28,453 nucleotides of DNA from a virus, in IMG/VR virus record IMGVR_UViG_3300043410_002471, positions 1 through 28,453 of that record; one strand, given 5' to 3'. Both the position numbers and the translations under genes were made by a program. The stretch's first letter is position 1, and the number at the start of each line of letters is the position of its first letter. This document shows positions 2,354 to 21,621 of the stretch, piece after piece. Under the pieces are notes generated by a model. It saw nothing but the letters and a program-made list of their open reading frames with translations. It was not told the DNA's origin and did no database searches.

Positions 2354-3091
2354 ATGAATAATGTTAAATCACTATTCCCAGATAAAACATATGAGATTAT
2401 GCCATATGCTCTCGAAGAACTTGACCCCTTTAAAACCGAAGATGGATTTACCAAAAAGTACGGCACTGGCGTAGATAATATTAGAGTTGTTGAAAACTTT
2501 TTGTCTAATGAAGAATGCGATAAGTTAATTGCTTTTACTGATCATTATAAAGTTTGGTCTGAAAGAGATCATTGCTACCCGCTTCACATGGCTGAAGACT
2601 TTGACTCTAGACCAATTATGTCTAAGTGGTATCACAATGAAATGAATGTTTTGGGGCCAAGGATGGTTGAGGCTGCACAAAATGCATGGAATGAACAACT
2701 AACTAGACATAACGACTGTATGTTAGTAGTTAATCAAATTGGCTCATATCACAAACCACATACAGATATCTTAGATATTCATTATGAAAACAATAATCCA
2801 TATGCAGATAAAGGACCATCAGTAGAAGATCAAACCAAACTATTTAAAAATATGTGGAGTGGTCATCTATCTATTCTTGTTTATCTAAATGATGATTATG
2901 GTCGTGGAGAGTTATACTTCCCACAGCATGATTTTTGGATCAAACCCAAGAAGGGTTCTCTCGTTACATTTCCTGGTAGTTTGCATTATGTTCATGGTGT
3001 AACTACAGTAGAAGATAAGATTAGATATACTTTGTCTCAGTGGGCTAAGTTTGATTATTTAAATTCAGAATATAGACCAGCAAACATTTGA
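2354..3091 (+). CDS. 2OG-Fe(II) oxygenase, prolyl-4-hydroxylase-like
   Basis: A 245-residue member of the 2-oxoglutarate/Fe(II) dioxygenase fold. The iron triad is visible: HTD at residues 136-138, the distal His in HYVHGVTTV (214), and the 2OG-binding Arg in RYTLSQW (224). Between them lie the usual strands LSILVYLNDDY, GELYFPQ and GSLVTFPG. Such enzymes hydroxylate protein side chains, nucleobases or small molecules; the substrate is not readable here. Residues 1-120 are a variable region. It is driven by its own TATAAT element 6 nt upstream, and is one of six such enzymes in the window. Confidence 0.9.
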   Translation: MNNVKSLFPDKTYEIMPYALEELDPFKTEDGFTKKYGTGVDNIRVVENFLSNEECDKLIAFTDHYKVWSERDHCYPLHMAEDFDSRPIMSKWYHNEMNVLGPRMVEAAQNAWNEQLTRHNDCMLVVNQIGSYHKPHTDILDIHYENNNPYADKGPSVEDQTKLFKNMWSGHLSILVYLNDDYGRGELYFPQHDFWIKPKKGSLVTFPGSLHYVHGVTTVEDKIRYTLSQWAKFDYLNSEYRPANI

Positions 3092-5306: not shown

Positions 5307-5729
5307 ATGAACTTTCAGTCTGAATCTAAAAAATCAGGGGATGCATTTGAAGATGTTGTCTATCTTGATCTGTTGTCCCGTGGTTTTGTTGACATAGATA
5401 AAAATGTATACATGAAAGGAACTGGATGTGAAGTTGACTTTGTAGCCAAAGGCAATCGTTATGAATACATTGAGTGCAAGGGTGGCAATCATGGGGATAA
5501 TAAGCGTCCAGGCGCAAAAAGGACAGATAACGTAAAAAAGGCTGTGGCAAACGGAAGTATTATGAAGAGGGTATACGAAACAATGTATTACGTAGTATAC
5601 TTTTCAGATACCCCAGAGCCAGGATCATATTCAGATGAAATGCTTAATTTAGCATTAAAGTATAATATTATTGATGAAGTAAGATATCTTAATCCATTAA
5701 GTAGTTTGGATCATCAGTTAGCCAAATAG
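5307..5729 (+). CDS. PD-(D/E)XK-type nuclease-like protein
   Basis: A 140-residue protein with the order expected of a small restriction-endonuclease fold: SKKSGDAFEDVVYLDLLSRGF (helix with Glu), GTGCEVDFVAKG (Asp at the strand end) and YEYIECKGGNHG (the E-x-K strand). The end is NIIDEVRYLNPL. Known relatives are phage endonucleases, resolvases and Cas4/RecB-like nucleases. The start at ATG 5307 is chosen for the -10 element 7 nt upstream; an earlier ATG at 5271 would overlap the divergent gene. It ends convergently, overlapping the next minus-strand gene by 41 nt. Confidence 0.75.
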   Translation: MNFQSESKKSGDAFEDVVYLDLLSRGFVDIDKNVYMKGTGCEVDFVAKGNRYEYIECKGGNHGDNKRPGAKRTDNVKKAVANGSIMKRVYETMYYVVYFSDTPEPGSYSDEMLNLALKYNIIDEVRYLNPLSSLDHQLAK

Positions 5730-6240
5730 GAATAGCATATCTATTTTGCTCAACCAACTTTACTCCATGCAAAGACTCATTGCTTCTACATTCAAATAAA
5801 ACTAAGTCTCCAGCCTCTGGCTTAATTTCAATATCTAATTTAGGAAAGTAAATCTCTCCTCCGCTTTGCTGAGTGTTAAGATAAACAACCCCACTATGAC
5901 AATATTGCATATTCATCCCACCGTCTGTATCTTTATGTGGTTTTATTTTTGATCCAGCAGTTTGTTTTGAAAGCCAAAGTGTAGATAGATATATTTTTTT
6001 ATCGTAGTCAAATAAAATTTGGGCCAATTTTGCAGCCTTATCTCCGTACGACCTTACCATTTTTCCAAAGTCTCCCAAGATATTTAAAGATTCCTGTGAG
6101 CCATTAAATTTATCTATACCAAAACGCATTATTTTTCTGGTAGACTGAACATCGTGTTCAGAATCAAATATATCTAATTTATTAATGATTTGCTCAATAT
6201 GATCTTGAGAAATAAAGTTTTTTATTACGTATACAGACAC
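5689..6240 (-). CDS. 2OG-Fe(II) oxygenase
   Basis: A 183-residue dioxygenase if started at GTG 6240, which lies 6 nt after a perfect TGCTATAAT; an ATG at 6288 would give 16 unlikely extra residues that span the promoter. The triad is HKD at residues 102-104, the distal His in SLHGVKLV (158) and Arg in NRYAIPIW (167), with GGEIYFPKLDIEIKPEAGDLVLFE, the typical double-stranded helix core, split between them. Residues 5-20 (VIKNFISQDHIEQIIN) match the N-terminal helix of phage P4H-like enzymes. Substrate unknown. It is divergent from a Cys-rich microprotein gene. Confidence 0.88.
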   Translation of the reverse strand: MSVYVIKNFISQDHIEQIINKLDIFDSEHDVQSTRKIMRFGIDKFNGSQESLNILGDFGKMVRSYGDKAAKLAQILFDYDKKIYLSTLWLSKQTAGSKIKPHKDTDGGMNMQYCHSGVVYLNTQQSGGEIYFPKLDIEIKPEAGDLVLFECRSNESLHGVKLVEQNRYAIPIWLTDDPNYLMD

Positions 6241-6246
6241 TTTACA

Positions 6247-6255
6247 ATTATAGCA
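6247..6255 (-). promoter_or_regulatory. extended -10 promoter with leaderless GTG
   Basis: On the minus strand, TGCTATAAT followed by 6 nt and GTG 6240. It shares a 35-bp gap with the divergent promoter at 6261-6269. Confidence 0.68.
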
Positions 6256-6260
6256 TGGTC

Positions 6261-6269
6261 TGGTATACT
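6261..6269 (+). promoter_or_regulatory. extended -10 promoter, leaderless type
   Basis: TGGTATACT with 6 nt to ATG 6276. It probably also reads into the first tRNAs, since the microprotein stop lies inside the tRNA-Arg 5' end. Confidence 0.62.
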
Positions 6270-6275
6270 TAATAT

Positions 6276-6443
6276 ATGGTAAAAACAATGTTTGAATTTG
6301 GCATCATGCTTTTGAAACAAAAGGCATGTAGGCACAAAGAGACATCACAGTCTTCTTGTCCTTTCACAATGAGAACATATACCAATTGCATCAAATGCGG
6401 TAAAAGAATTAAGGCAGTTAGCAATATTAATCTGCCCCTATAA
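6276..6443 (+). CDS. 55-aa Cys-rich microprotein
   Basis: MVKTMFEFGIMLLKQKACRH... includes KACRHKETSQSSCPF and TNCIKCGKRIKAV, two Cys pairs plus a His, so probably a small zinc ribbon. Its stop TAA lies within the acceptor stem of tRNA-Arg, a 10-nt overlap. Leaderless-type promoter at 6261-6269. Function unknown. Confidence 0.55.
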   Translation: MVKTMFEFGIMLLKQKACRHKETSQSSCPFTMRTYTNCIKCGKRIKAVSNINLPL

Positions 6444-7049: not shown

Positions 7050-7290
7050 CAAACAAGACTACGACGGTAGGCTTGGAGTATGCCAGAACGAAGCGTTTGT
7101 CAGCAAGCGTGAGATTGGGCAGGTGGCCCTAACGGGTAAGGTTAGTAACCTAAACATTTGGCAGGACTAAAGCGTATATCATACATTGATATTGTTGACT
7201 TGTCCTTGATGGTAAAAGGCAATCCATCTACTCACAACTAAAAACTATTGCAGGGGTTCCCTAAGTTGAAGCGAATGCAATAGTTTTTTG
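7050..7290 (+). ncRNA. structured RNA region ending at a terminator
   Basis: A 240-nt non-coding stretch between tRNA-Trp and tRNA-Gly. Visible elements: CAAAC/GTTTG (5 bp) enclosing GGC/GCC; TTGGGC/GCCCTAA with loop AGGTG; AGGTT/AACCT with a 3-nt loop; GATGG/CCATC; and the final terminator stem. The sequence is G-rich compared with neighbouring coding DNA, as structured RNAs in AT-rich genomes usually are. Large phage RNAs such as GOLLD are known near or around tRNA genes, so that family is a candidate, but I cannot confirm it by eye. Confidence 0.45.
7240..7289 (+). terminator. intrinsic terminator within tRNA cluster
   Basis: Stem AAAAACTATTGCA (7240-7252) pairs with TGCAATAGTTTTT (7276-7288) around a 23-nt loop, followed by a T-run of six. 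It lies 7 nt before tRNA-Gly copy 2, so the later tRNAs need read-through or their own promoter. Confidence 0.75.
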
Positions 7291-7295
7291 GTTTT

Positions 7296-7369
7296 GCGGA
7301 TGTTGAATATTGGTAGTGCCTCTGCCTTCCAAGCAGAAGGGATGAGTTCGATTCTCATCATCCGCTCCA
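7296..7369 (+). tRNA. tRNA-Gly(TCC), copy 2
   Basis: Acceptor GCGGATG/CATCCGC, anticodon stem TCTGC/GCAGA with loop CTTCCAA, T-stem ATGAG/CTCAT, discriminator T with encoded CCA. The D-stem (GAA/TGC) is weak compared with copy 1. Confidence 0.88.
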
Positions 7370-7370
7370 A

Positions 7371-7444
7371 AGTGGTATGGCTCAATTGGTTAGAGCACCT
7401 GTCTGATACACAGGAGATTCTTGGTTCAATTCCAAGTACCACTA
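7371..7444 (+). tRNA. tRNA-Ile(GAT)
   Basis: Acceptor AGTGGTA/TACCACT, anticodon stem CCTGT/ACAGG with loop CTGATAC, T-stem CTTGG/CCAAG, discriminator A, no CCA. Confidence 0.92.
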
Positions 7445-7448
7445 CTAA

Positions 7449-7520
7449 ACCTGTATAGCATAATGGTTGTGCGCTTCCCTCATAAGGAAGAGTGTATTGG
7501 TTCAATTCCAATTGCAGGTA
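7449..7520 (+). tRNA. tRNA with CAT anticodon (Met or lysidine-Ile)
   Basis: Acceptor ACCTGTA/TGCAGGT (A1-T72 pair), anticodon stem CTTCC/GGAAG with loop CTCATAA, T-stem ATTGG/CCAAT. The initiator marks (1-72 mismatch, three G-C pairs next to the loop) are absent, so it is an elongator Met or a CAT-Ile tRNA. Confidence 0.88.
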
Positions 7521-7521
7521 C

Positions 7522-7607
7522 GGAAGATTGGCAGAGTGGCCGAATGTAACGGTTTGCTAAATCGTAGATCGCAAGATCCACAGGTTCGAATCCTGTATCT
7601 TCCGCCA
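7522..7607 (+). tRNA. tRNA-Ser(GCT)
   Basis: Acceptor GGAAGAT/ATCTTCC, anticodon stem ACGGT/ATCGT with loop TTGCTAA, a long class II variable arm (GATC...GATC), T-stem ACAGG/CCTGT, discriminator G and encoded CCA. Confidence 0.93.
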
Positions 7608-7608
7608 G

Positions 7609-7682
7609 GCTCTAATAGTCCAATTGGTAGAGGCGCATGTCTTAGGAACATGATGTTGTAGGTTCAAGTCCTACTTAGAGCA
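7609..7682 (+). tRNA. tRNA-Leu(TAG) with short variable arm
   Basis: Acceptor GCTCTAA/TTAGAGC, anticodon stem CATGT/ACATG with loop CTTAGGA, T-stem GTAGG/CCTAC, discriminator A, no CCA. The anticodon TAG reads CTA, but the variable loop is only about five bases, so the long arm typical of bacterial tRNA-Leu is missing. The D-stem is weak. Confidence 0.8.
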
Positions 7683-7686
7683 CTAA

Positions 7687-7759
7687 GCCCCTGTAACCCA
7701 GCGGTAGAGGTAGTGGACTTAAAATTCATTCAGCGTTGGTTCAAATCCAACCAGGGGTA
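7687..7759 (+). tRNA. tRNA-Leu(TAA) with short variable arm
   Basis: Acceptor GCCCCTG/CAGGGGT, D-stem ACC/GGT, anticodon stem GTGGA/TTCAT with loop CTTAAAA, T-stem GTTGG/CCAAC, discriminator A. It reads TTA. As in the neighbouring TAG tRNA, the variable loop is class I length. Confidence 0.8.
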
Positions 7760-7791
7760 CGTGGTACACTTAGATTAAGGAAAGAGGAAAA

Positions 7792-8007
7792 ATGAATAAA
7801 GGGAATATTGTTAAAATTTTATCTGGAGATAACTCTGGAAAGGCTGCAGAAGTTGTAGAAGTTAAAGAAACTGAAGTTACAATTAAACTTCTCAATAGTG
7901 AAGATACGTATGTTGTTAAGCCAGAAGAAGTAAAGAGAAAGAAATTGTGCGTTTGTGGATTGTCAAAAGATTATCCATTCTGTGATGGATCCCACGCATC
8001 TGGTTGA
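7792..8007 (+). CDS. KOW-like domain fused to CDGSH iron-sulfur motif
   Basis: A 71-residue protein with AAGAGGAAAA as ribosome binding site. Residues 3-48 (KGNIVKILSGDNSGKAAEVV and the following strands) look like a KOW/SH3-type barrel found in ribosomal and NusG proteins. Residues 52-71 read KKLCVCGLSKDYPFCDGSH: the C-x-C...P-x-C-D-G-S-H signature that binds a labile 2Fe-2S cluster through three Cys and one His. CDGSH proteins sense redox or iron or transfer clusters. This pairing suggests a redox-sensitive RNA- or ribosome-binding factor, which is inference. It sits directly after the tRNA cluster. Confidence 0.8.
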   Translation: MNKGNIVKILSGDNSGKAAEVVEVKETEVTIKLLNSEDTYVVKPEEVKRKKLCVCGLSKDYPFCDGSHASG

Positions 8008-8010
8008 AAT

Positions 8011-8184
8011 ATGGACTATGATTCTTTAAAAAAAGAAATAAATAATATTCTTTTTGAAGAAGGTAAACATGTAGGTATTCATAAACTTTATAATAATAAT
8101 TTTATTATTGATATAGATTATGAAAAAATATCCAATTTAATTATTGAAACCATAAAGGAACATAATGCCAAGACGTCCAACTAG
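8011..8184 (+). CDS. 57-aa helical microprotein
   Basis: ATG 8011 lies three bases after the CDGSH gene. The product (SLKKEINNILFEEGKHVGIH, then NNFIIDIDYEKISNLIIET) is Ile/Asn/Lys-rich with two helices and a strand pair. It ends 20 nt inside the methyltransferase gene. No family recognised. Confidence 0.5.
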   Translation: MDYDSLKKEINNILFEEGKHVGIHKLYNNNFIIDIDYEKISNLIIETIKEHNAKTSN

Positions 8185-8863
8185 AATGTTAAACCGAGAT
8201 GAAATTAAAGAATTTTCTTTAGATGAGATAGAAGATTCTCCAAAAATTAATCAGGCACAACTTGATAATGCAAGGCTATTTTCTAGCAGAGAAGAATATG
8301 CCAAGTCATTGCCTAAAGGATTAAGATATTTAGAATTTGGTGTGGCATGGGGATATTCTGCTCAGTTGTTTATTGATGCTTCTAGCGCATCTCATGGACT
8401 GCTAGTTGATCTATATAATCAAGATTTAAAGTGTTGGTCATGGAGAAAGTTTGGTTCTTGTCAATGTCAGGGAATGAAGCATGAACTTTTATATACGCCA
8501 GAAAATCACCAACAATACATTATTGATAAGTTTAGTTATCATCCTAGCATTACTACTATGAAAGGTGATGCTTTAAATATAGTAAAGCAATTAAATAATA
8601 AATATGATTTTATTTATATTGACATTAGTAATGATAGAATTCAAACACGAGAACTTCTACGAGATTCTGCAAAACTAATTGATGTGAATGGAATTATTGG
8701 GCTGAATGATTATTTAATTTATGATGGTGTCATTGAAGATCAGCCTTACGGTACCTTCCAAACTGTAAATGAGTTTCTATCATTAAATCCAAACTGGGAA
8801 GTAGATGCTATTGCCCTACATAACCTAGGGTTTTATGATATTTATATTAGAAAGGTAAAATAG
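8165..8863 (+). CDS. class I SAM methyltransferase, paralogue of 4661-5272
   Basis: A 232-residue protein with AAGGAACATA before ATG 8165. After a 30-residue N-terminal extension, INQAQLDNARLFSSREEYA and RYLEFGVAWGYSAQLF (motif I) match the positions of QSQLNNAKIYNNRWEWA and MEVGVSAGDFAEHM in the minus-strand paralogue. KYDFIYIDISNDRIQTRELL and IIGLNDYLIYDG complete the core, and both end in an IRKV-type sequence. Between them is an insertion with CWSWRKFGSCQCQG, absent from the other copy. It likely methylates a sugar or small molecule and precedes two oxygenases and a carbamoyltransferase. Confidence 0.84.
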   Translation: MPRRPTRMLNRDEIKEFSLDEIEDSPKINQAQLDNARLFSSREEYAKSLPKGLRYLEFGVAWGYSAQLFIDASSASHGLLVDLYNQDLKCWSWRKFGSCQCQGMKHELLYTPENHQQYIIDKFSYHPSITTMKGDALNIVKQLNNKYDFIYIDISNDRIQTRELLRDSAKLIDVNGIIGLNDYLIYDGVIEDQPYGTFQTVNEFLSLNPNWEVDAIALHNLGFYDIYIRKVK

Positions 8864-8884: not shown

Positions 8885-9478
8885 ATGCATAGAATACACG
8901 TGGTCGAAAACTTTATTACCCCAGAAGATGCTGCAACATTAATTAAAGAACAGCACAATCCTTCTGAAGTTAATCCATATCCTTCATACTATTCAGATAG
9001 ATATGGTGGTACATCGCTTCCATACAACAAAACAGTTATGGATATTATGATTAAATATGGCAAGATAGCAAATGAAAAGCACAGAGAACTTAATGGTTTT
9101 GTTAATGATATTTATGTTTTTAAGGGTTTTGGATCTCACTGGGCAACAGGTACAAAAGGTGATCTTCATATTGATGCACAGGGTCCAGAACCATGGATTG
9201 AGTTTAGTACAGTAATATACCTAAATCATGAATCGGAATATGATGGTGGGGTTATCTATTTCCCAAATCAGGATTTTTATTATAAGCCAAAGCAATATTC
9301 TGCAGTATTTTTTCCAAGTGCTGGAACAGAATACATTCATGGGATAACAACTGTTAGTCGTGGAGATAGGTACACAGCACTATTTATGCATACAAGTTTG
9401 CCAGATCATGTGGATCCAGATTTTCATCCTGGTCTAAATCATTGGAAAGCAAAGGAGTACCCACTTGCACGAGTTTGA
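8885..9478 (+). CDS. 2OG-Fe(II) oxygenase
   Basis: A 197-residue dioxygenase. HID at residues 95-97, the distal His in YIHGITTV (152) and Arg in DRYTALF (162) form the Fe/2OG site, with FSTVIYLN, GGVIYFPNQDF and SAVFFPSAG as barrel strands. Residues 1-20 (RIHVVENFITPEDAATLI) are the N-terminal strand-helix seen in several of these enzymes. It begins six bases after a TATAAT and overlaps the next gene, which starts at TTG 9465 inside its 3' end. Substrate unknown. Confidence 0.9.
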   Translation: MHRIHVVENFITPEDAATLIKEQHNPSEVNPYPSYYSDRYGGTSLPYNKTVMDIMIKYGKIANEKHRELNGFVNDIYVFKGFGSHWATGTKGDLHIDAQGPEPWIEFSTVIYLNHESEYDGGVIYFPNQDFYYKPKQYSAVFFPSAGTEYIHGITTVSRGDRYTALFMHTSLPDHVDPDFHPGLNHWKAKEYPLARV

Positions 9479-10133
9479 TGTTGAGGTATTAGACCTTGGT
9501 CTTGTTTATTATACTAATGTAATCAAGGAACCACAAAAACTAATTGAAGAAATTGAATCTTTAGATGCCAAATATAAAGAAGATAACAAGTCTGAACTTA
9601 CAGCAGTAAAGCCTTGGATTGCTTGGACATATGGAGAAGGAGATAATAAACTTATGTTTTGTTGGCAAAAGTTTATTCCACAAGTAAAGGATCTTAGTCC
9701 AAAAGATATCTATTATCATGAACAGGCAAGTATTTCTTCTAAACTATTTGGTGCTTTAGATGCAACATTAAAGCATTACACAACAGAACTTTATCCGTTT
9801 GCCGAAAAAAATATTAAATCTAGAGAGCATACAATGCATCTTTTAAGATATGATGAAAGTGGACATTTGCCTGCACACCAAGATCAGGGAATTAGCAGTC
9901 GTGTTCTTTCTGTTCTTCTATATTTAAACGATGACTATGAGGGAGGGGAGATTGAGTTTATGCATTCCAAACTAAAGTTTAAGCCTAAAGCAGGCAGCGT
10001 ACTATTCTTCCCATCTAACTTCCTATATGTTCACGAGGTTTATCCTGTTACTAAAGGTCCTAGATATGCCCTTCCAAATTGGTATCACAATATACCTTTT
10101 GAAATAAAGAGAGATTCAAACGGCGACGAATGA
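9465..10133 (+). CDS. 2OG-Fe(II) oxygenase, TTG start
   Basis: A 222-residue dioxygenase with HQD at 138-140, the distal His in YVHEVYPV (190) and Arg in PRYALPNW (200). LSVLLYLNDDYEGGEIEFMH and GSVLFFPSNF are typical core strands. The TTG start at 9465 is supported by AAAGGAG at 9451-9457, exactly 7 nt upstream, and no ATG lies near. Its TGA overlaps the ATG of the carbamoyltransferase (ATGA), so the two are co-translated. The pair suggests hydroxylation that creates an OH for carbamoyl transfer, an inference from order only. Confidence 0.9.
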   Translation: MHEFDVEVLDLGLVYYTNVIKEPQKLIEEIESLDAKYKEDNKSELTAVKPWIAWTYGEGDNKLMFCWQKFIPQVKDLSPKDIYYHEQASISSKLFGALDATLKHYTTELYPFAEKNIKSREHTMHLLRYDESGHLPAHQDQGISSRVLSVLLYLNDDYEGGEIEFMHSKLKFKPKAGSVLFFPSNFLYVHEVYPVTKGPRYALPNWYHNIPFEIKRDSNGDE

Positions 10134-11569
10134 TAATTCTTGGTGTTAATGAAACTACTCATGATGCTGCTGTAACTGTAATCAAAGACGGTGAAATACT
10201 TTTTGCTGGACATGCAGAACGATATAGTAAGCAAAAAAATGATTGGTACACCAATGATCAACTTTTAGATGAAGCGCTATCATATGGTAAACCAAACCAA
10301 ATTGCTTACTATGAATATCGCTGGCTTAAAAAATTAAGAATCGCAACACGTGGTGGTTTTGGTGGGGGAAAGCCAAATTATTTAAATAGAAAAGACCTCA
10401 AATGGATTCCAACTACACAGTTTAGTCACCATGAATCACATGCAGCAGCAGGATATTACACAAGTAAGTTTCAGGATGCTGTAGTTGTAGTTTTGGACGC
10501 AATTGGAGAATATAATACTTCTACAATTTGGGTAGGAGAAGGATCAAATCTAAAGATAGTTAAAAAGCATAATTATCCTTTTAGTTTTGGACTTTTTTAT
10601 TCAGCATTTACGCAACTTCTTGGACTAATGCCAAACCAAGAAGAATACATTATGATGGGAATGGCTGGATATGGAAATCCAGAAGTTTATTTCAAAGATG
10701 TAAATAATTATTTTCCATCAATCAATGATCAAAAGTATAACTTTCACAAAGGAATAATTGATTGGCCATATAAGATTTATAATGATCAAGATAAATTTGA
10801 TATTGCTGCAGCCGTTCAAAAAGTTTATGAAATAAGACTACTAGAGTTTATGCAATATGCAAAATCAATAACCAATAAAGACAACCTTGTTTTTATGGGT
10901 GGTTGTGCATTAAATAGCAAAGCCAATACATTGCTTTGGGATTTGTTTGAAGATGTTTGGATTATGCCAAATCCAGGAGATGCGGGAAGTTCTTTAGGTG
11001 CTGCTGCTGCACTTTATGGCTCTCATATTAATTGGAAAAATCCTTATCTAGGGTATGACTTGGGTGGAAAATACCCAGTTGATGAAATTTTAAATGAAAT
11101 TATTCAAAATAAAGTTTGTGCAGTAGCAACTGGTAAGGCAGAGTTTGGTCCAAGAGCACTTGGAAATAGAAGTATTCTGGCTGATCCTAGAGATCCAAAC
11201 ATTAAAGATAAAGTAAATCTAATTAAACAAAGAGAATTGTTTAGACCATTTGCTCCAGTGGTTATGGCGGAACACGCCTCTGAGTGGTTTGAAATGGATT
11301 ATGAATCTCCTTATATGCAATATACCCCAAAGTGCCTTAAACCCGCTCTGGTGCCCTCTGTGGTGCATGTTGATGGCACGTCTCGTGTGCAAACTGTCAC
11401 AAAAGAACAACATCCAGGATTATATGATTTATTGGATAAATTTTATAAAATAACAGGTGTTCCAATTCTATTGAATACAAGTCTTAATATTAAAGGTCAA
11501 CCTTTGCTTAATGATGAAAACGATATTGGATTATGGGAAAAAACTTATAATCAAAAAATAATTAGATAG
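10130..11569 (+). CDS. NodU/TobZ-type O-carbamoyltransferase
   Basis: A 479-residue protein. The N-terminal Kae1-like half starts IILGVNETTHDAAVTVIKDG and has SHHESHAAAGYY (residues 99-110, metal-binding His residues), DAIGEYNTSTIW and the GLMPNQEEYIMMGMAGYG segment. The C-terminal domain shows EFGPRALGNRSILADPRD, FRPFAPVV and ILLNTSLNIKGQPLL. These enzymes make carbamoyl-adenylate from carbamoyl phosphate and ATP and pass it to a hydroxyl. It ends shortly after the LNTS motif, a length I associate with phage homologues, not a truncation. It ends convergently with the RsmI-like gene (8-nt overlap). Confidence 0.92.
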   Translation: MIILGVNETTHDAAVTVIKDGEILFAGHAERYSKQKNDWYTNDQLLDEALSYGKPNQIAYYEYRWLKKLRIATRGGFGGGKPNYLNRKDLKWIPTTQFSHHESHAAAGYYTSKFQDAVVVVLDAIGEYNTSTIWVGEGSNLKIVKKHNYPFSFGLFYSAFTQLLGLMPNQEEYIMMGMAGYGNPEVYFKDVNNYFPSINDQKYNFHKGIIDWPYKIYNDQDKFDIAAAVQKVYEIRLLEFMQYAKSITNKDNLVFMGGCALNSKANTLLWDLFEDVWIMPNPGDAGSSLGAAAALYGSHINWKNPYLGYDLGGKYPVDEILNEIIQNKVCAVATGKAEFGPRALGNRSILADPRDPNIKDKVNLIKQRELFRPFAPVVMAEHASEWFEMDYESPYMQYTPKCLKPALVPSVVHVDGTSRVQTVTKEQHPGLYDLLDKFYKITGVPILLNTSLNIKGQPLLNDENDIGLWEKTYNQKIIR

Positions 11570-12341
11570 GCATGTTGCCATTTTTTTGATCTATAACAAT
11601 CGTTATTTGATCCAAAACATTTCGTTCATTTGTAAAAAAATAATCTTTAAGATATTTTAATGTTCCTCTTACAACACGTTCATTTGGTTTTGTTAGGTTA
11701 TAACATAAAGCAGCATGTCTGTCAGATCCAAAAATATCTACTGCGTCTTCTAAAAATTCTGGTATCTCATTATTAAAAATTAATGGCTCTCCTGCTCCTG
11801 CAGCATGTGCCATATTCCTAAGAACAAGCACAAGTGGTGTATGTAAATTGGCTCTTTTTGTCATAAAAATTATTTTATCTTTTCTTTCATAGGGTAAAAA
11901 GGAATCAAAAGTAAAATTATGCATTGTTCCTGTGACGGCTACTGCTGCAATAGCAACTGAGGGCCCAGGAGTTGAAGTGATTTCAATACCCTGCTCAATT
12001 GCTTTGCCAACTATATGCGATCCTGGATCAGCAATGCCTGGCATCCCCTCATCTGAAATAATATAAACATCTTCTCCATTATTTAATAAGTCTAGTATTT
12101 TTTGCATGTTTTGTAGTTCATATGGCGTTCCAGATGGTTCGCCAGCAGTTGATTGAAATTCAATAGATATGATATTTGCGTCAGATCTAGGGTTACCAAC
12201 ATGCTTCCATATATGCTCAAATGCTTCTTGTCTTTCAATTACTAAATTTTTAGCAGTTGTTACATACTGCTTTGCTCTTTCTGAAATATCTTCCCAATTG
12301 CCAATAGGAAGGCCTACCAAGTATAATTTGCCCTTTGTCAT
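11562..12341 (-). CDS. RsmI-like tetrapyrrole-methylase-family methyltransferase
   Basis: A 259-residue protein. KLYLVGLPIGNWEDISERAKQ matches the N-terminal LYxVxTPIGNxEDI of RsmI, and VYIISDEGMPGIADPGSHIV matches the ISDAGTPGISDPG motif that forms the SAM site; TSTPGPSVAIAAVAVTG follows as in the family. Cellular RsmI 2'-O-methylates C1402 of 16S rRNA. The C-terminal half is divergent, so the phage enzyme may act on another substrate. Its ATG lies in a TAATG junction with a Lys-rich micro-ORF. Confidence 0.85.
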   Translation of the reverse strand: MTKGKLYLVGLPIGNWEDISERAKQYVTTAKNLVIERQEAFEHIWKHVGNPRSDANIISIEFQSTAGEPSGTPYELQNMQKILDLLNNGEDVYIISDEGMPGIADPGSHIVGKAIEQGIEITSTPGPSVAIAAVAVTGTMHNFTFDSFLPYERKDKIIFMTKRANLHTPLVLVLRNMAHAAGAGEPLIFNNEIPEFLEDAVDIFGSDRHAALCYNLTKPNERVVRGTLKYLKDYFFTNERNVLDQITIVIDQKNGNMPI

Positions 12342-16717: not shown

Positions 16718-17425
16718 ATGGACCAACAGAGAATAGAAAACGCAGCAAGAGGCGTAACCGTTGATCAAAACGGAAATGAGTTTAAGTTTACATCTCCATT
16801 TCCAGGAATGCATATATATGATAATATTTGGCCAAACTCAATGGATTTTTTTAATCAAACATTGACAAAAGAGTTTTGGAACAATAATTCAGACAAGCCT
16901 GGATACAAGAAATGGGTTAGAGAAGATTTTTTTGACGATATTGAATATACAAGAGAAAATGGTAAACAGTCAGATACCTGTTGGGTTTATAATTATCCAG
17001 ATGCTAATGAGGCCTTTTCTGGTCCAGTAAATTCATATTTGTATCACTGGAATTTAGATCCAAAAAGTAGAGAAAGTTTAAGAATTTCAAGATTCTCTAA
17101 TGGAGAATTTTTCGGTGCACACTCCGATGATACATTGGCTACACCAAGAACAGTATCCATGGTCTACTATCCTAATGATGATTATGAAGGTGGAGAGTTA
17201 GAGTTTATTCATTTTGGTGTAACTATTAAACCAAAGGCAAATCAACTTTTTATATTTCCCTCAGCATATTCTTATGAACATAAAATTTTAGAAATTAAAA
17301 GTGGAAATCCAAGATGGACAGTTGTATCATTTTTATATTTTGGAGATCAGCAAGAAACAGATAATAGACGTAAAGGCTTAGACTTTCCTTATAAGCCAAT
17401 TTTTACTGATTTGTTTAAGATATAA
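16718..17425 (+). CDS. 2OG-Fe(II) oxygenase
   Basis: A 235-residue dioxygenase with AAAGGA before the ATG. HSD at residues 135-137, the distal His in SYEHKILEI (188) and Arg in NPRWTVVSF (199) make the active site; VSMVYYPNDDYEGGELEF and NQLFIFPSAY are core strands. It is the only plus-strand gene between two long minus-strand blocks, divergent from the sulfotransferase and closed by a strong bidirectional terminator. Substrate unknown; the pairing hints that sulfation may follow hydroxylation. Confidence 0.9.
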   Translation: MDQQRIENAARGVTVDQNGNEFKFTSPFPGMHIYDNIWPNSMDFFNQTLTKEFWNNNSDKPGYKKWVREDFFDDIEYTRENGKQSDTCWVYNYPDANEAFSGPVNSYLYHWNLDPKSRESLRISRFSNGEFFGAHSDDTLATPRTVSMVYYPNDDYEGGELEFIHFGVTIKPKANQLFIFPSAYSYEHKILEIKSGNPRWTVVSFLYFGDQQETDNRRKGLDFPYKPIFTDLFKI

Positions 17426-18567: not shown

Positions 18568-19015
18568 TTTGATCCTTTACCAATAAACCAACATAATCAC
18601 TACATAACCCATATATCGTATCATAATCTACTCCAGAAGTCAAATCTACATCGACTAAAATTGAGTTTGGTCCAGTATTTTTATTGGGATAGGTCCAAAT
18701 ATATCCACTACTGGTCATTGTGTATGCATCTTCTTCATGCCAGAAAAAATTACAAAACTTAAAGTTTTTTGACATTAAGTCTAATGCCTCAAAATTTTTA
18801 CAATGAAACCAAGCAGAATTTCTAAGGTCTACAACAAAAAATGGATCCACTCCATATATTGGTTCATCGTGTCCTAAATAGAAATTGCCACGGTTAGCCC
18901 AAATATCTATCTCAACCTCAAAACCTAGTTCGATAGCATTTAAAATATAGTCTGGGTTATTTTCTAAATCCTGATTTGGACCATAAACATTACCTCTATG
19001 TGCTATTTTAATCAT
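18557..19015 (-). CDS. short GDPD/PI-PLC-like phosphodiesterase
   Basis: A 152-residue protein with GAGGT upstream. IAHRGNVYGPNQDLENNPDY (HRG and Glu/Asn), GFEVEIDIWA (E-x-D metal ligands) and FYLGHDEPIYG (His) match the N-terminal half of glycerophosphodiester phosphodiesterases. The family is usually about 240 residues or more, so the second half of the barrel is missing or minimal. It may trim glycerol- or sugar-phosphate groups. It is embedded between the HAD-nucleotidyltransferase and small genes in one operon. Confidence 0.75.
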   Translation of the reverse strand: MIKIAHRGNVYGPNQDLENNPDYILNAIELGFEVEIDIWANRGNFYLGHDEPIYGVDPFFVVDLRNSAWFHCKNFEALDLMSKNFKFCNFFWHEEDAYTMTSSGYIWTYPNKNTGPNSILVDVDLTSGVDYDTIYGLCSDYVGLLVKDQNVY

Positions 19016-20375
19016 GGCTACCTCTATTGTTTAGATAATAATTTAAGTCTTCTGGCGTACCCACTCCCCACATGCGCTCAACATCATGGGTTAATATTTT
19101 TTGATTGTCTCCAATAGCCTCATTAAAAATTGGACAAATGTAAAACTCATTGTTAGTTTTTATATTCTTTGCTATCATTTGCTCTGCATATTTAACAAAG
19201 TTTTTTCCATGTTTCCAATAATAAATTCCAACTGTAGCAATATCGCTAATTGGTTTTTTTTCAGCAACCTCCAAAACATGTCCAACTGAATTTATTTTTG
19301 CATAAGACCATTTTGGATGAGTAGATTTAAAAGTAACAATCCCACCATCGGCATTTTTAGTTATCATTTCATATAAGAAACTACGACTACTCCAATCAAC
19401 TACCTGATCAGAATTAGCAATTATAAGCGGCTTATCGTTATCAATAAATTCCTTTGCCATTAATGCCGTAACTGCAGCACCTTCTGTCAAACCACTAACT
19501 TGAACAATATTGCAATTTGGTGTAATCCTGTTTAACATATATTGAAGTTCATATTTTTCATAGTGCTCTTGTTGTACAATATAAGTAAAATTAGCCTTGA
19601 TATTAAGATTGTCTACTACGACCTGAATCATAGGCTTTCCATCAATGTCAATTAAAGGTTTTGGAAAAGAGTACCCAGCATCCCTAAACCTGCTTCCAAG
19701 CCCTGCCATAGGGATTAAAACATTAAGATTATCATCTTCCCAAACTATATTTGTTTCCAGCAGTGATTGGATCGCTTTTTCAATTTTATCTGTGTTTAAG
19801 TCTTGTCTATCAACAATGTCTATCAATCTTGCCTTACTATCTCTAACTGCTAATTTTCCAACAATGCTATCTTCAAAAATAATTGTTGTATCTGGAACAG
19901 CATTTAAAAAAGACATTGCTTTCCAGTACATCTCTGGATGTGGTTTTGGATGGATTACATCTTCATTGCTAACAATACAGTCAACCATATCAAAAATACC
20001 TAATCTTGTTAAACAAGTATCAACTGTCTGCTTAATACTATTACTTGCTACGGCAATCTTAATACCATTGTCTCTAATTCTCTGAAAATATTCTTTTAAC
20101 TTAATATCTTTAATAATATTATTAAAAAGTAATAAGGTTTTTTCTTGCTTTGATTGCCATATTTGATCATAGAGAGCCTTATCCAAACCCTTTTGTTTTG
20201 TTAAAAGTTCTAATTTTACCTTGGTTGGTAGACCCTCATATATCTCTGCTTGCTCGTTTTCTGTAATGATAAATTTTTCATCAAATTCTTTTAAAGCCAA
20301 ATTTAATGCGTCAAAATGCAAAAGTTTGCTATCAATAAGTACGCCATCGAGATCAAATATAATAAGTTTATTCAC
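19008..20375 (-). CDS. HAD phosphatase fused to sugar nucleotidyltransferase
   Basis: A 455-residue fusion starting at GTG 20375, with AGAGG 7 nt upstream. Residues 3-200 form a HAD phosphatase: LIIFDLDGVLIDSK (DxD), IAVASNSIK (motif II), HPKPHPEMYW (Lys) and IIFEDSIVG (motif IV). Residues 225-450 form a nucleotidyltransferase: NVLIPMAGLGSRFRDAGYSF then PKPLIDIDGKPMI, with IIANSDQVVDW as the metal-binding Asp strand. It would activate and dephosphorylate a sugar phosphate. The GT61 gene directly upstream could use the product. Confidence 0.88.
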   Translation of the reverse strand: MNKLIIFDLDGVLIDSKLLHFDALNLALKEFDEKFIITENEQAEIYEGLPTKVKLELLTKQKGLDKALYDQIWQSKQEKTLLLFNNIIKDIKLKEYFQRIRDNGIKIAVASNSIKQTVDTCLTRLGIFDMVDCIVSNEDVIHPKPHPEMYWKAMSFLNAVPDTTIIFEDSIVGKLAVRDSKARLIDIVDRQDLNTDKIEKAIQSLLETNIVWEDDNLNVLIPMAGLGSRFRDAGYSFPKPLIDIDGKPMIQVVVDNLNIKANFTYIVQQEHYEKYELQYMLNRITPNCNIVQVSGLTEGAAVTALMAKEFIDNDKPLIIANSDQVVDWSSRSFLYEMITKNADGGIVTFKSTHPKWSYAKINSVGHVLEVAEKKPISDIATVGIYYWKHGKNFVKYAEQMIAKNIKTNNEFYICPIFNEAIGDNQKILTHDVERMWGVGTPEDLNYYLNNRGSHD

Positions 20376-21336: not shown

Positions 21337-21621
21337 TTACTTATCCATCGTCAAATATTGCCAAGTAGATGCCCACTTGACTTTATCCTTGTGTCGATTA
21401 AACTCCCTTGAAATTTGTCCATTCTCTAAGTATACACCACCCCAGATACCCCATTCCTTTGAAGTAATTCCAACAGCAAAACATGTCTTACTTACTGGAC
21501 ATTCAGAACAAAGTTTATCTATTGCTGGTCTTAATAATTCATCTTCTTCGTATGTATCAAAAAATAAATTAGTATCGTAACCTAGACACGAGCCATGATC
21601 TTTCCACTCTTGTCTACTCAT
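21337..21621 (-). CDS. WhiB-family iron-sulfur transcription regulator
   Basis: A 94-residue protein with Cys12, Cys38, Cys41 and Cys47 (C-x25-CxxC-x5-C) and GIWGG at 58-62, the two diagnostic features of Wbl proteins. They hold a 4Fe-4S cluster and bind the sigma-A factor of actinobacteria. Phage Wbl proteins can repress host whiB genes or block septation. This is the strongest sign of an actinobacterial host. Confidence 0.93.
   Translation of the reverse strand: MSRQEWKDHGSCLGYDTNLFFDTYEEDELLRPAIDKLCSECPVSKTCFAVGITSKEWGIWGGVYLENGQISREFNRHKDKVKWASTWQYLTMDK

Follow-up and report, generated by a model that had tools for sequence, protein, structure and literature searches.

Directly behind a cluster of tRNA genes in a phage genome lies a short open reading frame whose product appears to combine an SH3/KOW-like N-terminus with a CDGSH iron-sulfur motif. 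What kind of protein is this, what might it dock on, and does its position speak for a role in translation? We address these questions using a 28,453-nt stretch of viral DNA (IMG/VR record IMGVR_UViG_3300043410_002471; hereafter, the window) together with related viral loci. We refer to the gene and its family as KC.

KC encodes a two-part protein

The open reading frame at 7792–8007 (+ strand) is a real gene with a two-part architecture. Its 71 codons, beginning with ATG, translate to MNKGNIVKILSGDNSGKAAEVVEVKETEVTIKLLNSEDTYVVKPEEVKRKKLCVCGLSKDYPFCDGSHASG; a Shine-Dalgarno-like GAGG (7784–7787, +) is found 4 nt upstream of the start codon, and purine-rich AGG/GGAG stretches likewise precede the KC homologues. 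The Pfam KOW profile matches residues 3–31 with 24.7 bits (cut-off 22.3) and zf-CDGSH matches residues 31–69 with 40.5 bits (cut-off 29.5; E = 3.4e-10). Both halves of the fusion described by the first-pass annotation are therefore above their cut-offs.

Three segments can be delineated. Residues 1–47 (7792–7932, +) correspond to the barrel, as judged from AF2 strands and a Foldseek match to Spt5 KOW, and carry a net charge of about −3. They are followed by a basic linker, KRKKL (residues 48–52; 7933–7947, +), in which K48 and K51 are invariant in all 14 family members. Residues 53–68 (CVCGLSKDYPFCDGSH; 7948–7995, +) constitute the CDGSH [2Fe-2S] motif, with C53, C55, C64, and H68 as putative ligands; this motif is an exact fit to the CDGSH consensus PhiCXCXX(S/T)XXXPPhiCDG(S/T/A)H (PMC3174974). 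No good model for KC was present in PHROGs, NCBIfam, or PADLOC, with no match to the anti-phage defence models of the latter.

KC is conserved among uncultured phages

We assembled the family by searching with the neighboring oxygenase, which gave 53 related viral loci, followed by six-frame motif scans and alignment-based searches. This recovered 13 distinct homologues beyond the window protein, all from uncultured phage contigs, most of which are fragments. The relatives share 30–55% identity with the window protein (14-member alignment A3). Ten residues are invariant in all 14 proteins (K48, K51, C53, C55, P62, C64, D65, G66, S67, and H68), all four ligand residues among them, while S58 is replaced by alanine in one member. 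Values of dN/dS range from 0.016 to 0.2 (Nei-Gojobori method; pairs with unsaturated dS), and the family appears to be under purifying selection. With 14 members, retained ligands, and dN/dS of 0.02–0.2, a chance open reading frame is ruled out.

The two halves are not equally recognizable across the family. In the alignment scan, the zf-CDGSH profile matches all 14 members, compared to four of 14 for the KOW profile at E ≤ 1; no KOW match above cut-off was found in the genomes of the relatives. In the cultured-phage collection, tblastn with whole KC gave no significant match, and a barrel consensus searched at E ≤ 10 gave no homologue, the top match being an annotated uL24. Of 215 confirmed genome loci, the 80 best-scoring ones all encode ordinary CDGSH proteins lacking the barrel; the idea that KC is a plain host-type CDGSH gene acquired by a phage is thus unsupported. 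Nor did we find a relevant paper describing a CDGSH motif joined to a KOW domain, in agreement with the earlier remark that no characterized protein of this architecture was known to its author.

The gene whiB, which encodes an Fe-S regulator in actinobacteria, exceeded its cut-off in each of the 14 near-complete relatives tested and is present in the window at 21337–21621. Among 14 control genomes, it was matched only in Corynebacterium. Because whiB occurs in every near-complete relative, the hosts of the KC phages are probably actinobacteria; a freshwater study likewise used whiB to call actinophages (PMC6802176). KC is a conserved gene family shared by a set of uncultured phages that probably infect actinobacteria.

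The N-terminal region is predicted to form an SH3/KOW-like barrel

Structure prediction returned the SH3-like N-terminal barrel anticipated by the first-pass annotation, both for the window protein and for its most divergent relative. The AF2 model of the former (alignment A2) has a mean pLDDT of 89.8, exceeding 90 over the barrel, and contains five strands (residues 6–9, 18–24, 29–33, 39–42, and 47–49); the latter, modeled with alignment A4, has the same five strands at a pLDDT of 86.5. In Foldseek searches, the window model best matched Spt5 KOW domains (1.1–1.3 Å), archaeal Spt5, NusG, and ribosomal KOW proteins, as well as small phage proteins that include KOW-domain proteins of Streptomyces phages. 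For the divergent member, the first matches were Tudor and PWWP barrels, with DSIF KOW6-KOW7 among them; one further match was PetP, which is SH3-like and belongs to the cytochrome b6f complex. Since KOW domains are only some of the matches to the divergent barrel, "SH3/KOW-like" seems a safer label than "KOW".

In its five-stranded SH3-like barrel, KC resembles the KOW domains (PF00467) found in Spt5/NusG and in ribosomal proteins, uL24 among them, with an rmsd of about 1.1–1.3 Å to Spt5 KOW; it differs from them in other respects. The barrel is acidic, its net charge lying between −2 and −6, and only the linker is basic (+2 to +5). The glycine of the KOW motif is present in the window protein, L007, L008, L179, and L181, and is another residue or a gap in the remaining members. 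Finally, KC has neither an NGN domain nor ribosomal-protein extensions. Membership of the uL24 and Spt5 families was rejected, with scores far below both equivalog cut-offs (17.2 bits against 53.7 for uL24; 15.9 bits against 69.95 for the NCBIfam Spt5 profile). Among the closest counterparts are KOW-only proteins from actinobacterial phages, such as those of Streptomyces phages Yaboi and Gilson (BFVD), which resemble the KC barrel and are matched by fold rather than by tblastn; these proteins stand alone at 53–59 residues and are too short to bear a CDGSH tail.

Such a fold would be compatible with a transcription accessory protein, in which a NusG/Spt5-like barrel targets RNA polymerase or Rho, perhaps to aid antitermination of the long untranslated tRNA array next to KC, and the Fe-S module serves as a sensor or second contact. 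This possibility accords with the Foldseek results for the window model, led by Spt5 KOW domains, archaeal Spt5, and NusG, and with the location of KC directly after long tRNA runs in several members. It is very unlikely, however, given the missing NGN domain and the low Spt5 score, a divergent barrel that is equally Tudor/PWWP-like, and some members (L061 and L178) in which KC is not beside tRNAs.

KC retains the CDGSH ligand residues on a predicted different scaffold

Seven types of CDGSH protein (Pfam PF09360) were defined by Lin et al. (2011; PMC3174974). According to that study, the CDGSH iron-sulfur module depends on a beta-sandwich that includes an N-strand and a P motif (GP-Phi-x-Phi). 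The solved structures it describes share a paired, [2Fe-2S]-binding module, carried by a beta-sandwich that has a lid-proline. KC shares with CISD/NEET proteins the pattern C-x-C-x2-S-x3-P-x-C-D-G-S-H, its four ligands invariant in the 14 members, but has an SH3/KOW-like barrel in the place where the beta-sandwich dimerization module would be. No GP form of the lid-proline motif was found in any of the 14 sequences; three GS forms were seen, at non-equivalent places. KC has a single motif with only two to four residues beyond its histidine, too few to accommodate the C-terminal strand that is usually present. The Phi1 position before the first cysteine is leucine in six members and R, A, K, N, or S in the others, and AF2 places a short strand at residues 47–49. 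Because KC lacks the GP-Phi-x-Phi motif and the C-terminal strand of known folds, the family fits none of the seven described types. It also has no counterpart among the bacterial CDGSH fusion partners named by Sengupta et al. (Fer4_19, Glu_synthase, Ferritin-like, and Rieske_2; PMC5859297), none of which is a KOW domain. On this evidence, KC has the ligand motif of a CDGSH protein on a predicted different scaffold: the family keeps every cluster ligand, drops the CDGSH scaffold, and has a KOW-type barrel instead.

It is conceivable that the C-x-C-x8-C...H arrangement binds zinc, in the manner of a SEC-C-type tail, or is a purely structural knuckle, making KC a nucleic-acid- or protein-binding adaptor that performs no redox chemistry. 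The C-x-C-x8-C spacing is like that of SEC-C tails, there are weak matches to a SWIM/SEC-C model and to a SecA tail peptide, the beta-sandwich context of known CDGSH proteins is absent, and a basic linker precedes the motif. We nevertheless regard this as quite improbable: the CDGSH consensus positions P62, D65, G66, S67, and H68 are invariant, zf-CDGSH scores 40.5 bits with SEC-C absent from the Pfam scan at E ≤ 10, and the solved CDGSH structures described by Lin et al. bind [2Fe-2S] (PMC3174974).

A separate, small CDGSH-only open reading frame (MSCSCGFSRNYPECDGTHK...) was observed in the related phage L185 at about 5613–5809 (−), where it adjoins the tRNA array. Like KC, it places a CDGSH-type motif (CDGTH) beside a tRNA array; unlike KC, its motif is N-terminal, has no barrel in front, and leads into about 45 residues of a different sequence.

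The tRNA-array junction is a variable site

A run of tRNA genes (Gly-Ile-Met-Ser-Leu-Leu; ARAGORN) spans 7296–7760 (+) of the window. The last of these, tRNA-Leu (7687–7760), ends 31 nt upstream of the KC start codon, in line with the position right after the tRNA cluster that was originally reported. KC and the tRNA array directly adjoin in eight of the 14 members (window, L007, L008, L060, L064, L179, L181, and L073, the tRNAs being downstream of KC in L073). At least one gene separates them in L004, L005, L010, L058, and L178, and in L061 KC is away from any tRNA array.

KC is present in seven of the 14 near-complete relatives (≥80 kb). Given its absence from the other seven, it is an accessory gene that phage translation can do without. 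Two relatives without KC, L188 and L193, have a tRNA-Arg followed by a 28-nt gap and then the methyltransferase gene, i.e., the same junction minus KC. The edge of the array is occupied by hsp20 in L187 and L192, and hsp20, methyltransferase, and oxygenase genes are also found at the junction in relatives. The junction is thus a site of variable gene content, and adjacency to tRNAs therefore shows where KC resides rather than what it does. Accordingly, we rejected this adjacency as proof of a function in translation, considering the KC-free junction of L188 and L193 and hsp20 elsewhere. The earlier suggestion that the location hints at translation control is weakly supported: the adjacency recurs in eight of 14 members, but KC is dispensable, the junction variable, the barrel acidic, the KOW signature confined to four of 14 members, and the divergent barrel matched as well by Tudor/PWWP as by KOW folds.

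Comparison with the methyltransferase suggests that KC has been exchanged or repeatedly gained across lineages, because its identity to the window copy does not track that of the methyltransferase (38% for KC and 76% for the methyltransferase in L179; 45% and 52% in L060).

KC neighbors include modification and redox genes

In the window, KC heads a same-strand run that continues with a 57-residue open reading frame, a methyltransferase, two 2OG-Fe(II) oxygenases, and a Nol-like carbamoyltransferase. The 57-residue frame (8011–8184, +) matched nothing in Pfam or PHROG and, by tblastn, occurs in relatives elsewhere, not adjoining KC. The methyltransferase (8165–8863, +) is a class I SAM enzyme (Methyltransf_24), a frequent neighbor of KC by synteny, and had no match in the cultured-phage collection. 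An 8-nt overlap between KC and the start of the methyltransferase gene is seen in L004, L007, and L008; in L005 and L010 the two genes abut. A strict partnership between the two is ruled out, since 13 of the 14 near-complete relatives (≥80 kb) encode the methyltransferase regardless of KC. The oxygenases and carbamoyltransferase, assigned using Pfam and PHROGs, occupy 8885–11569 (+). Genes for thioredoxin and a ferritin-like protein are also present in the window.

These surroundings bear on the possibility that KC is a small electron or cluster/iron carrier, the barrel docking on phage redox enzymes rather than RNA machinery and the cluster supplying electrons, iron, or [2Fe-2S], for example to keep the numerous 2OG-Fe(II) oxygenases active or in support of WhiB. 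The same-strand run with the methyltransferase, oxygenases, and carbamoyltransferase is in keeping with it, as are the overlapping or abutting methyltransferase gene in five other members and the nearby thioredoxin and ferritin-like genes. So too are the acidic barrel, which is expected of a protein-docking surface, and the PetP match of the divergent member. Cluster transfer by oxidized NEET proteins is also documented (PMC8463382). In the other direction, L060 and L064 keep KC without adjoining oxygenases, and many relatives have the oxygenases and carbamoyltransferase in loci that lack KC. 2OG oxygenases are not known to require a CDGSH donor. We consider a carrier role a real but somewhat unlikely possibility.

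Several further features of this region merit description. The window holds a dense set of modification genes within 28 kb, comprising oxygenases, the Nol-like carbamoyltransferase, and two Methyltransf_24 enzymes. Four 2OG-Fe(II) oxygenases are Pfam-supported (2354–3091, 5689–6288, 8885–9478, and 9465–10133), and a fifth oxygenase-like frame at 16718–17425 was judged by eye. At 11562–12341 (−) lies a member of the tetrapyrrole-methylase family (PF00590) that resembles the rRNA methylase RsmI and has no PHROG; the L058–L067 members contain two related copies of such a methylase near KC, with an RsmI-like gene convergent and just downstream of it. A HAD phosphatase-nucleotidyltransferase fusion is encoded as a single 455-residue phage protein at 19008–20375 (−).

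KC may act as a docked redox or iron switch

The reading we prefer, with a probability of about one in three, is that KC is a docked redox or iron switch, its barrel on the ribosome or polymerase and its labile [2Fe-2S] module responsive. KC would be a small two-module accessory protein of uncultured actinophages, in which residues 1–47 provide an SH3/KOW-like docking module and residues 53–68 a minimal CDGSH module that may hold a labile [2Fe-2S] cluster through C53, C55, C64, and H68. Because known CDGSH modules are paired and KC has one copy without a beta-sandwich of its own, it would presumably pair as a homodimer to hold the cluster. In the likeliest mode, the barrel and basic linker would position the cluster on a large machine, either the host's or the phage's. 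As KOW barrels normally sit on the ribosome or RNA polymerase, these two are the leading candidate partners, and a redox partner is another option. Gain, loss, or reduction of the cluster could then alter docking or pairing, and KC would thereby report the iron or redox state during infection. NEET-type clusters are described as transferable when oxidized and as staying bound when reduced (PMC8463382).

We count in favor of the docked switch both Pfam profiles, the invariant residues, dN/dS, the AF2 barrels, and the Spt5, NusG, and ribosomal fold matches, together with the tRNA-edge position in eight of 14 members, the convergent RsmI-like gene, the NEET cluster transfer (PMC8463382), and whiB. 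Against it, the acidic barrel does not favor RNA contact except via the linker; the KOW profile is matched in only four of 14 members and the KOW glycine is not conserved; KC is absent from seven of 14 near-complete relatives and the edge of the tRNA array is variable; and KC lacks the P motif, and apparently a clear N-strand context, both needed by known CDGSH folds. The probability left over from the switch, carrier, zinc-adaptor, and transcription-accessory explanations goes to something else.

A more far-reaching claim would treat KC as a new structural CDGSH class that has an SH3/KOW barrel instead of the beta-sandwich and that serves infecting actinophages as an iron- or redox-responsive factor docked on the ribosome or RNA polymerase of the host; we consider this unlikely. 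If the cluster is held, the CDGSH module would be graftable onto a different fold. If the partner of the barrel is the ribosome or RNA polymerase, KC would be a sensor of redox state or iron, made by the phage and seated on the central machinery of uncultured actinobacteria.

RNA elements beside the tRNA array

A full-length match to the manA RNA (RF01745) was observed at 7057–7238 (+), with 46.8 bits (gathering score 55.2) and an E-value of 2e-10. It lies within the tRNA array rather than upstream of a coding gene, and 16 related contigs gave no match. Since published manA RNAs come from cyanophages, gamma-proteobacteria, and marine metagenomes (PMC2864571), a manA-like copy in a probable actinophage is unusual. 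Immediately after it and before tRNA-Gly, a long, near-perfect hairpin with a terminal T run (AAAAACTATTGCA ... TGCAATAGTTTTTT; 7241–7291, +) resembles the terminator of an independent RNA unit.
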